Source of the DNA: Veillonella intestinalis
GTDB lineage: Bacteria; Bacillota; Negativicutes; Veillonellales; Veillonellaceae
Assembly: GCF_943193155.1 (NCBI RefSeq)
Contig: NZ_CALPDB010000005.1
Coordinates: forward strand, 62,001 to 126,000
Reading direction: 5' to 3'
DNA length: 64,000 bases
Of this stretch, positions 18,784 through 43,721 are shown piece by piece. The notes under the pieces were generated by a model. That model was not told where the DNA came from. It was given only the letters and a program-made list of their open reading frames with translations, and did no database searches. Each line of letters begins with the position of its first letter. The stretch's first letter is position 1. The position numbers and the translations under genes are program-made.

Positions 18784-18812
18784 ATTCTAACAAACAGCAA
18801 CTTATTAGTCAA
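18784..18812 (-). promoter_or_regulatory. Promoter of the purE-C-F-M-N-H-D operon
   Basis: On the minus strand TTGACT (18807-18812) and TAGAAT (18784-18789) are 17 bases apart. The leader is about 56 bases, too short for a purine riboswitch. Confidence 0.75.
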
Positions 18813-36378: not shown

Positions 36379-36429
36379 ATCGTAACACGTCCCCTGTACT
36401 GCGTCAATACTGAATGCAGTACAGGGGAC
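36379..36429 (-). promoter_or_regulatory. Palindromic promoter of the sulfite/nitrite reductase
   Basis: On the minus strand TTGACG (36402-36407) and TACGAT (36379-36384) are 17 bases apart. A perfect 14-bp inverted repeat, GTCCCCTGTACTGC (36389-36402) and GCAGTACAGGGGAC (36416-36429), covers most of the -10/-35 spacer and the region upstream of the -35. The repeat lacks a T run, so it looks like an operator more than a terminator. Confidence 0.55.
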
Positions 36430-41937: not shown

Positions 41938-42040
41938 TTTGTGTGTTGTGTTTGTGTGTTTGTGTGTTTTTTGTGTTTGTGTGTGTTTTTTTGTGTTTGT
42001 GTGTGTTTTTTTGTGCGTTTGTGTTTAGTGTGTGTTTTAG
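41938..42040. repeat. GT/CA-rich low-complexity tract with 20-bp tandem units
   Basis: TTGTGTTTGTGTGTGTTTTT occurs twice in exact tandem (41971-41990, 41991-42010). Degenerate copies lie on either side. In the mRNA of the minus-strand genes this is a G-poor, CA-rich, unstructured tract between the small exported-protein gene and the terminator. Confidence 0.85.
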
Positions 42041-42065
42041 AGAGAGTCTTTAAAGCTAATGAAGC

Positions 42066-42512
42066 TTAAAAGGTTGCTTCTGGAATAGAAGCATGGGAAG
42101 GTTTCTGCGAATGTCCCTCTTCTTGTGGACTCCTATCTGGTTGATACTGACGCTCTTTGCTATGATGCGCTCTACGGTCATAATCAACTGGCATATGACC
42201 TGCATTGCTACGAGATGCTCCATACATAGTCTGCGGCATCAAGAAAATAGCTGCATTAGCTTCTACCTGATTATGTGCCATCGAACGTGCCCGTACCATA
42301 TCATCATAGGCGGTCGGCATAGTATACGGCCTACGGTCTAAGCCCATTTCATGTGGACCTTTCATAGAAACACTTGTTTCTACTGCCTGAGGATGTGTGG
42401 TTGCTGGTTGTACCGCTGACGGCTCAGCAGCCAGTGATGTGCCCCAAAGCATGCCACCGAGTACACCTAGTACAGCAACCTTTCTCAGTAAACTTTGAGA
42501 TGGTTCTTTCAT
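42066..42512 (-). CDS. Small exported protein, unknown
   Basis: A 148-residue precursor with a basic N terminus and hydrophobic core ending TSLAAEP, a likely signal peptidase I site. The mature part is polar, rich in His, Gln, Met and Pro (RRPYTMPTAYDDMVRARSMAHNQVEANAA, then a HHSKERQYQPDRSPQEE-like tail) and probably flexible. The signal peptide resembles that of the phytase downstream (GGMLWGTSLA versus GTTVYGTSFA). The SD is AAAGGAG at 7 bases. No family is recognised. Confidence 0.75.
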   Translation of the reverse strand: MKEPSQSLLRKVAVLGVLGGMLWGTSLAAEPSAVQPATTHPQAVETSVSMKGPHEMGLDRRPYTMPTAYDDMVRARSMAHNQVEANAAIFLMPQTMYGASRSNAGHMPVDYDRRAHHSKERQYQPDRSPQEEGHSQKPSHASIPEATF

Positions 42513-42517
42513 ACTAA

Positions 42518-42622
42518 GACTCCTTTGCTATACTATAAAAAAAGGGAAATTCTATAGCAATCTCTTACGATGAGCTTCGATACGAGGTGAAAACTCAATT
42601 TCTTGTAAGAGTTTCTTGCTAT
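42518..42622 (-). promoter_or_regulatory. Structured leader with two mutually exclusive pairings
   Basis: In the mRNA, ATAGCAA (A, 42616-42622) followed by CTCTTAC (42605-42611) can pair with GTAAGAG (42562-42568) and TTGCTAT (B, 42553-42560). B can instead pair with TATAGCAA (C, 42525-42532), which directly abuts the AGGAG SD. A run of seven or more T/U lies between B and C. A weak -10 (TATTCT, 42629-42634) would start transcription right at A. The pairings are seen; the switching is inferred. Confidence 0.5.
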
Positions 42623-42688
42623 GTGTATAGAATACAGGGATAACATGAACTCCACATGTGAAAACCGTGAGAGTTATGTGAAGTTTTC

Positions 42689-42715
42689 TCATGAATACTC
42701 ATCTATAATTCATGA
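42689..42715. promoter_or_regulatory. Inverted repeat upstream of the exported-protein gene
   Basis: TCATGAAT and ATTCATGA flank 11 bases. The right half is part of TATAATTCATGAA, which also occurs upstream of the four-gene exported operon. Confidence 0.45.
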
Positions 42716-42728
42716 ACTTAAAATATTA

Positions 42729-42860
42729 ACTATAAATAACAATAAGTCACTATAAGTGATATTCAGTCCTATAAGTAATGTTCAATCCTATAAATAACTT
42801 TTAATCACTATAAATAACTATCCATGTGTATATAAAATCACAACCTATAAATAAAAAATT
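42729..42860. repeat. Array of about seven 19-20 bp direct repeats
   Basis: CTATAA cores begin at 42730, 42750, 42769, 42788 and 42808, with weaker copies near 42827 and at 42845. A typical unit is CTATAAATAACTTTTAATCA. The regular spacing of about two helical turns in the 409-base gap between divergent genes suggests cooperative protein binding sites. No ORF is present. Confidence 0.7.
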
Positions 42861-42921
42861 AATATAGTCAAAAAGAGAGATTTTATTATATAGTATATAC
42901 AGTAAGTGCAAGGAGGTAATC

Positions 42922-43419
42922 ATGACAGATCAAGACTATATGCAAGAGGCCCTTGTTGAAGCCCGTAAAGCCTATGAATTAGGCGAAATTCCTATAGGAG
43001 CCATCATTGTAAAAGATGATACAATTATTTCACGACACCATAATCGCCGAGAATTAGATCATGATGCCACGGCTCATGCTGAAATTTTAGTCATTCGTAA
43101 GGCCTGTGAAATACTTGATCGTTGGCGGTTGACCGGTTGCACTCTTTATGTTACTATAGAGCCATGTCCGATGTGCGCTGGTGCCATTATTAACAGTCGA
43201 ATTGACCGTGTTGTCTATGGCAGTAGTGATTACAAAGGAGGCGCTGTAGAATCTTTATTTAATGTACTCACACATCCTGGATTAAATCATGAGCCAGATA
43301 TTTTAAGTGGTGTATTAGCTGATGAATGCAGTCAAATAATGAAAGATTTTTTCAAAGAGCGTCGTAAAAAACGGAGAAGTACCCAAGAGGCTGAAGGGTC
43401 CGCACTCGAAATGCGGTAG
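42922..43419 (+). CDS. tadA: tRNA adenosine(34) deaminase
   Basis: A zinc deaminase of 165 residues that makes inosine at the wobble position of tRNA-Arg(ACG). It has THAEI-like TAHAEILVIRKAC with the catalytic His-Ala-Glu, and EPCPMCAGAIINSRIDRVVYG with the two Cys ligands. The SD is AAGGAGG. The coding frame has no stop before the tRNA-Ser gene that begins at 43373. The stop TAG (43417-43419) lies inside that tRNA, so the last 14-15 residues (RRSTQEAEGSALEMR) are encoded by tRNA sequence. Confidence 0.93.
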   Translation: MTDQDYMQEALVEARKAYELGEIPIGAIIVKDDTIISRHHNRRELDHDATAHAEILVIRKACEILDRWRLTGCTLYVTIEPCPMCAGAIINSRIDRVVYGSSDYKGGAVESLFNVLTHPGLNHEPDILSGVLADECSQIMKDFFKERRKKRRSTQEAEGSALEMR

Positions 43420-43464
43420 GTCGGCAAAACCGGCGCGGGGGTTCAAATCCCTCCTTCTCCGCCA
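43373..43464 (+). tRNA. tRNA-Ser (anticodon CGA)
   Basis: A 92-base class II tRNA. The acceptor stem is GGAGAAG/CTTCTCC and the anticodon stem CCGCA/TGCGG has loop CTCGAAA, giving anticodon CGA (codon UCG). It has a long variable arm, the T-loop GTTCAAATC and an encoded CCA at 43462-43464. Its first 47 bases overlap the 3' end of tadA in the same direction. Confidence 0.95.
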
Positions 43465-43504
43465 TCTATGTACCGTATTTTTCGATTAATTCCAATAATA
43501 ATCA

Positions 43505-43556
43505 AACCTCTTACAATACTAGGTAACATCTAGTATCATAAGAGGTTTTTCTTTTT
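43505..43556 (+). terminator. Terminator of tadA and tRNA-Ser
   Basis: AAACCTCTTA and an inner ATACTAG pair with CTAGTAT and TAAGAGGTTT, followed by a T-rich tail. Confidence 0.9.
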
Positions 43557-43592
43557 GTCAAATCATTAGAAATTAGCCATAGTTTTCAACTT

Positions 43593-43721
43593 TTTCCGTC
43601 TAATTACCGTCTTAAATTTGATTTATAACTGTTCATTCAGGTTTGATTTATAACGCTTGCAATATAATCTTTCAACCCAGTAAATACAAGGCTTTATACG
43701 AGAAAACTAGTTTCCGTCTAA
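43593..43721. repeat. Two pairs of short direct repeats
   Basis: TTTCCGTCTAA occurs at 43593-43603 and 43711-43721. TTTGATTTATAAC occurs at 43617-43629 and 43642-43654. They fill the 3' side of the exported operon, where no clear terminator was found for it. Confidence 0.6.

Follow-up and report, generated by a model that had tools for sequence, protein, structure and literature searches.

In Escherichia coli, RNase P parts the upstream mRNA from the downstream tRNA in secG-leuU and similar gene pairs, and the mRNA keeps its stop codon because the stop precedes the tRNA. In mitochondria, where tRNAs punctuate the transcripts, tRNA processing cuts through or beside coding sequences and can remove their stops, which are then completed by polyadenylation. 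The closest bacterial system is that of selB and selC: selB genes have been reported that enclose tRNA-Sec or extend into it, with the stop of selB at nucleotides 46-48 of the tRNA in Dyella and Luteibacter (Mukai 2021, PMC8124441). In the accessible part of that paper a nonstop selB mRNA is proposed to arise from tRNA processing, a repression of SelB by this route is put forward as a hypothesis, and mitochondrial overlaps of coding sequences with tRNAs are named as well. Among the matches listed in the open-licence literature this was the only relevant bacterial precedent, and none of them reported an overlap of tadA with tRNA-Ser or transcription start sites for Veillonella. A dual RNA-seq study of V. 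parvula is available (read set PRJNA505944; PMC6529473); the accessible part of its text does not contain the phrase "transcription start".

We analysed a window of 64,000 nt of Veillonella intestinalis DNA, in which tadA ends inside the gene for tRNA-Ser(CGA). This overlap is real, derived and present in nearly the whole family, and the one bacterial precedent that we found concerns another gene pair. What is new is an apparent promoter of the tRNA inside tadA, to which sequence comparison points. The features of the locus are the following.

42865..42894, plus strand: promoter-like site 5' of tadA, TAGTCA-N18-TATAGT, a consensus match alone (9/12)
42911..42916, plus strand: AGGAGG, likely ribosome binding site of tadA, read directly
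42922..43419, plus strand: tadA, tRNA adenosine(34) deaminase, a single open frame of 165 codons (165 aa) matching NF008113
43129..43157, plus strand: promoter-like element within tadA, TTGACC-N17-TACTAT with TG before the -10 (extended -10), from a promoter scan and codon conservation
Between 43372 and 43373, plus strand: expected RNase P cut, placed by the tRNA 5' end
43373..43464, plus strand: tRNA-Ser(CGA) with encoded CCA (ARAGORN; Rfam RF00005, 52.9 bits)
43417..43419, plus strand: TAG stop of tadA, nt 45-47 of the tRNA, read directly; position shared by 24 of 28 family genomes
43504..43548, plus strand: terminator-like hairpin of 19 pairs, then TTCTTTTT; the scan lists it on the minus strand only, the plus-strand tail was read by eye and the hairpin is part of the predicted fold

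TadA scores 193.9 bits against the NCBIfam equivalog NF008113 (cut-off 150), and the HAE and PCxxC motifs can be read directly in the protein. The tRNA was recognised by two programs, ARAGORN and Rfam, and has the CGA anticodon, a long variable arm and the CCA; it is the sole copy with this anticodon among the 45 tRNAs of the genome. The open frame of tadA reads through nucleotides 1-44 of the tRNA and then meets TAG, as the preliminary description had stated; the start coordinate given there, 43370, is 3 nt too low for the tRNA itself. The last 15 codons and the stop lie wholly or partly within the tRNA, and the codon CGG at 43372-43374 straddles the expected RNase P site. A coding sequence that stops within a tRNA gene on the same strand is what marks the selB-selC type, and tadA is such a sequence. 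For annotators this means that the final TadA residues of Veillonella are translated tRNA, 14 wholly and one partly in most cases, six wholly and one partly in the V. ratti group.

Some further properties of the surrounding sequence were noted. Base 43372, at position -1, is C and the discriminator base at 43461 is G, and the pair C(-1)-G(73) could extend the acceptor stem; every aligned row of the nt 45-47 group has C at -1, a base that might delay RNase P cleavage or move its site. Upstream of tadA, 42720-42850 is AT-rich with repeated CTATAAATAA-like units, spotted by eye. Farther upstream, the plus strand has a low-complexity tract at 41940-42060 with Cys-, Val- and Phe-rich ORFs that are probably spurious.

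Within its own genome the arrangement is unusual. For 22 of the 45 tRNAs (Rfam) no other tRNA lies upstream in the stretch read, and among these leading tRNAs only tRNA-Ser(CGA) is entered by an upstream ORF of at least 40 codons. Ten of the other 23 tRNAs are entered by such ORFs, each of which crosses a preceding tRNA at most 31 nt away.

The preliminary description had proposed to look for a conserved overlap across the Veillonellaceae, and such conservation is what we see. According to ARAGORN, tRNA-Ser(CGA) follows tadA in all 28 genomes of the GTDB family, that of the window (G000) included, and the tadA stop lies within the tRNA in 27 of them: at nt 45-47 in 24 genomes and, in another frame, at nt 20-22 in three (G003-G005). 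The overlap is partial in all 27 and never nested, and its presence in 27 of 28 genomes means that it is not an assembly artefact. The sole exception, G007, has its stop 31 nt before the tRNA. A second, overlapping sample of 18 loci with at least 80% TadA identity (L004-L021), which has members in common with the 28 genomes, gives a similar picture, with 15 stops at nt 45-47 (including those of V. parvula SKV38, V. atypica, V. rogosae and V. magna), two at nt 20-22 (V. ratti ATCC 17746 and Veillonella sp. KGMB01456) and one before the tRNA (L018, from a MAG, identical in this locus to G007). Downstream of its tRNA-Ser(CGA), the G007 locus (L121/L018) also carries tRNA-Pro(CGG), tRNA-Pro(TGG) and tRNA-Gly(TCC), and the four codons of the internal promoter-like element discussed below are intact in it.

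A maximum-likelihood tree of rpoB (28 family genomes and two outgroups, 1381 columns) places G007 within the family, where its sister group is formed by the seven genomes from the window's genus (support 94, beneath a node of 95). By parsimony on this tree, the simplest reading of the history is one gain of the overlap at the base of the family, one loss in G007 and one change of frame in G003-G005. Conservation among relatives with occasional loss is also typical of the selB-selC type, and here it amounts to 27 of 28 genomes with a single loss by parsimony.

Outside the family we collected 143 distinct tadA loci, 91 from a first set and 52 fetched later; the latter remain from 70 chosen among matches outside families f1-f4 but in the same class, after 18 repeats were dropped, and a few loci of the first set may fall outside that class. 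In this sample tRNA-Ser(CGA) lies within 70 nt of tadA in 64 loci and at 71-600 nt in 14; it is missing from the 600 nt behind tadA in 63, and in two loci the contig is too short to decide. The stop precedes the tRNA in 63 of the 64 near pairs, in 32 of them by 0-14 nt, and judging from these sequences a stop 0-14 nt before the tRNA is likely to be the ancestral state. The sole overlap among these 64 loci is found in L186 (genome G038), where the stop is at nt 22-24; it is independent of that in Veillonella.

What does this anatomy imply for the transcripts? For 42500-43600 the scan lists the hairpin at 43504-43548 as the sole terminator-like structure and none between tadA and the tRNA, and the anatomy supports the conclusion that any transcript with the tadA stop also includes the 5' half of the tRNA. 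It follows from the same layout that an RNase P cut at 43373, where we expect it, would leave the tadA mRNA nonstop. All 28 family genomes encode tmRNA, so that ribosome rescue is available. Note that the short transcript which we predict below should have a strong secondary structure (z -4.96) that includes the anticodon and variable arms; its minimum-energy fold is not a cloverleaf, as the trailer at 43475-43483 is paired with the 5' strand of the acceptor stem, and no conclusion is drawn from it because such folds ignore the tertiary contacts of tRNA. We also weighed programmed frameshifting at an AAAAAAC run before the tRNA and discarded it: the run varies among relatives, many of which have GTAAAGCAC, and neither of the other frames has a stop between the run and the tRNA.

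We propose, from comparison of sequences, that the element at 43129-43157 is the promoter of tRNA-Ser(CGA), with a predicted start of the short transcript near 43164. Its end is 215 nt upstream of the tRNA, and it is encoded in the codons of L-T-G-C-T-L-Y-V-T-I, directly 5' of EPCPMC. Synonymous entropy in the 28 family tadA genes averages 0.66 and drops to 0.42 at codons 66-78, the site of the element. Four diagnostic codons of the element (TTG, TAT, GTT and ATA), picked after inspection of the alignment, occur together in all 29 distinct family tadA sequences, compared with 0.25 sequences expected from codon usage. At other synonymous positions of these genes mixing is thorough (the family tree from 37 4-fold sites has a length of 11.5), so that this fixation of four codons, one of them ATA with 16% of the Ile codons in family loci, is not inertia alone.

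The pattern also accompanies the tRNA beyond the family. All four codons are found in 36 of the 64 outside loci that have a near tRNA (at most 70 nt), in 2 of the 14 with a more distant tRNA and in none of the 63 without it, a count that omits the two truncated contigs, one of which carries all four codons. The difference between 36/64 and 0/63 gives a Fisher value of 2.7e-14, which is too small, as are the other P values from these loci, because the loci are related by descent. Among loci of 40-50% GC in the first outside set the pattern occurs in 15 of 18 with the tRNA and in 0 of 24 without it. The consensus promoter score, too, differs between outside loci with and without the tRNA (P = 4e-8). 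In the window the string TTGACN15TGNTANNAT has three matches where 0.10 would be expected; the two other exact matches, at 18784-18812 and 36379-36407, are both on the minus strand. When the best promoter match within 260 nt upstream is taken for each of the 22 leading tRNAs, it lies 9-123 nt away in 20; the remaining two are tRNA-Ser(TGA), with a weak match at 170 nt, and tRNA-Ser(CGA), with its match at 215 nt, inside tadA. In summary, the element has the -35 and -10 hexamers of a sigma-70 promoter at a spacing within 16-18 nt and is kept beyond what the coding function needs, yet 28 of the 64 outside loci with a near tRNA lack the full pattern. We regard the comparative case for a tRNA promoter within tadA as good.

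In our opinion these observations are probably best explained by an old pair of neighbours that shares a 3' end and a terminator, in which the tRNA has its own promoter inside tadA and the overlap is tolerated. A sigma-70-type promoter in the codons for the conserved core of TadA would produce most of the pre-tRNA, whose leader of about 209 nt would be removed by RNase P, and a long transcript would run from the putative promoter upstream of tadA on through the tRNA, both ending at 43504-43548. The short transcript would supply the tRNA without touching TadA, and because of the promoter-like element tadA mRNA need not be the source of the tRNA. The ancestral tadA stop, shortly before the tRNA, would have been lost at the base of the Veillonella family, and the frame would therefore end at the next in-frame stop, within the tRNA. 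Completing TadA on the long transcript would require a ribosome to read 47 nt into the tRNA, presumably on nascent or uncut molecules; tadA messages cut by RNase P would become nonstop and be cleared by tmRNA. The cost would be some of a protein that may be needed in small amounts, and the overlap would persist because it is tolerated.

Instead of being tolerated, the overlap could be a selected throttle, in which RNase P makes most of the tadA mRNA nonstop and thus keeps TadA low, while the internal promoter supplies the tRNA, whose amount is not what is regulated. Throughout the family the overlap has indeed been lost just once and changed frame just once, it has arisen independently in G038, tmRNA is present in every family genome, and of the 24 genomes that stop at nt 45-47 none has regained a stop in the codons before the tRNA. 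However, a neutral simulation with two free codons gives a probability of 0.17 or 0.076, depending on the root codon, that no stop is regained, so that in these 24 genomes we were not able to find significant selection for keeping the overlap, and its retention needs none. Moreover, the overlap has evolved in one of 64 outside loci, although 32 of them have their stop 0-14 nt before the tRNA. We therefore consider a selected throttle unlikely, if still worth keeping in mind.

A more elaborate proposal would treat the locus as dual-coded: the core codons of TadA would be an ancient tRNA promoter, the tRNA would be the 3' end of tadA, and both would be kept so that RNase P and ribosome traffic set the survival of the tadA message. 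If this were true, the TadA level would report the capacity of RNase P or of ribosome rescue. We find it quite unlikely.

It is also conceivable that the locked codons serve some other signal or constraint at the nucleotide level, for example slow-codon pausing or the site of a regulator, and not a promoter. ATA, one of the four codons, makes up just 16% of the Ile codons in family loci, the promoter is a prediction, and 28 of the 64 outside loci with a near tRNA lack the full pattern. Among these 28 are all nine near-tRNA loci of f16 from the later set, and in L024 and L174 each of the four codons is missing. The promoter reading has further limits. In the later-fetched loci taken alone, the pattern occurs in 12 of 31 with the tRNA and in 1 of 13 without it (P = 0.068); the one exception is L241, whose contig ends 47 nt after the stop, and without L241 and L256 the counts are 12/31 and 0/11 (P = 0.018). 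A plain consensus promoter score compared with codon shuffles reached P <= 0.05 in none of the 29 family loci, in a test that is low in power because the amino acids force part of the -10 and the -35. Against such a signal stand the form of the element, which fits an extended -10 promoter of the sigma-70 type with 17-nt spacing, and its company with the tRNA, as the pattern is absent from all 63 loci without it. A signal other than a promoter is, in our judgement, very unlikely.

The preliminary description had suggested that one transcript yields either tRNA-Ser or a complete TadA message, in a feedback between tRNA supply and wobble editing. TadA edits A34, and the sole A34 anticodon among the 45 tRNAs is that of tRNA-Arg(ACG), present in two copies on another contig, so that tRNA-Ser(CGA) is not an expected substrate of TadA; TCG codons number none in tadA of the window's genome and zero or one across the 28 family genomes. 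Such a switch is highly improbable: exclusivity per molecule does follow from the anatomy and a similar model has been proposed for selB-selC (PMC8124441, accessible part), but the conserved internal promoter-like element tracks the tRNA, the only expected substrate is encoded elsewhere and tadA has next to no TCG codons. The feedback is not supported, as we find no route by which the amount of tRNA-Ser could bear on wobble editing, and the earlier interpretation as a whole is supported in part. It had been set against an arrangement in which the tRNA has a promoter of its own and tadA transcripts end elsewhere; the internal element suggests the first half of that arrangement, whereas the second half was not found.

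We also noticed seven outside loci (L040, L050, L056, L063, L064, L070 and L071, from Pelosinus and others) in which the tadA match is preceded at a distance of 65-128 nt by tRNA-Arg(ACG), with tRNA-Arg(CCT) intervening in five. In these loci the expected substrate tRNA-Arg(ACG), tadA and tRNA-Ser(CGA) stand in a row.

TadA is essential in E. coli, and a core translation enzyme whose stop lies in a tRNA throughout nearly a whole family is a natural test of stop removal by RNase P; it serves the questions of how often a normal gene gives nonstop mRNA and how trans-translation copes with it. The promoter-like element would be a clear case of a coding sequence held by a second function, and this second constraint on the tadA codons is visible because the pattern is absent from all 63 outside loci known to be without the tRNA.

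The layout of the E. coli type, with the stop before the tRNA, is also that of 63 of the 64 tadA loci outside the family, unlike that of the Veillonella family. The mitochondrial overlaps resemble tadA in that processing can take the stop away; in contrast to them, the tadA stop would go with the tRNA, and rescue is expected from tmRNA. The greatest likeness is to selB-selC, as far as the accessible part of PMC8124441 describes it. In both, a translation-related coding sequence enters a downstream tRNA on the same strand, with the stop at nt 46-48 there and at nt 45-47 here; both overlaps are conserved and lost in places through a new stop before the tRNA; and for both, a nonstop mRNA is predicted after tRNA processing. 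On the other hand, the genes differ, being tadA and tRNA-Ser(CGA) here, and TadA is not expected to act on the tRNA that it overlaps. The tadA overlap is partial in its 27 family genomes and never nested, and comparison of the loci argues for a promoter-like element that serves the tRNA from within the coding sequence, such as is not described there for the same-strand selB-selC cases.
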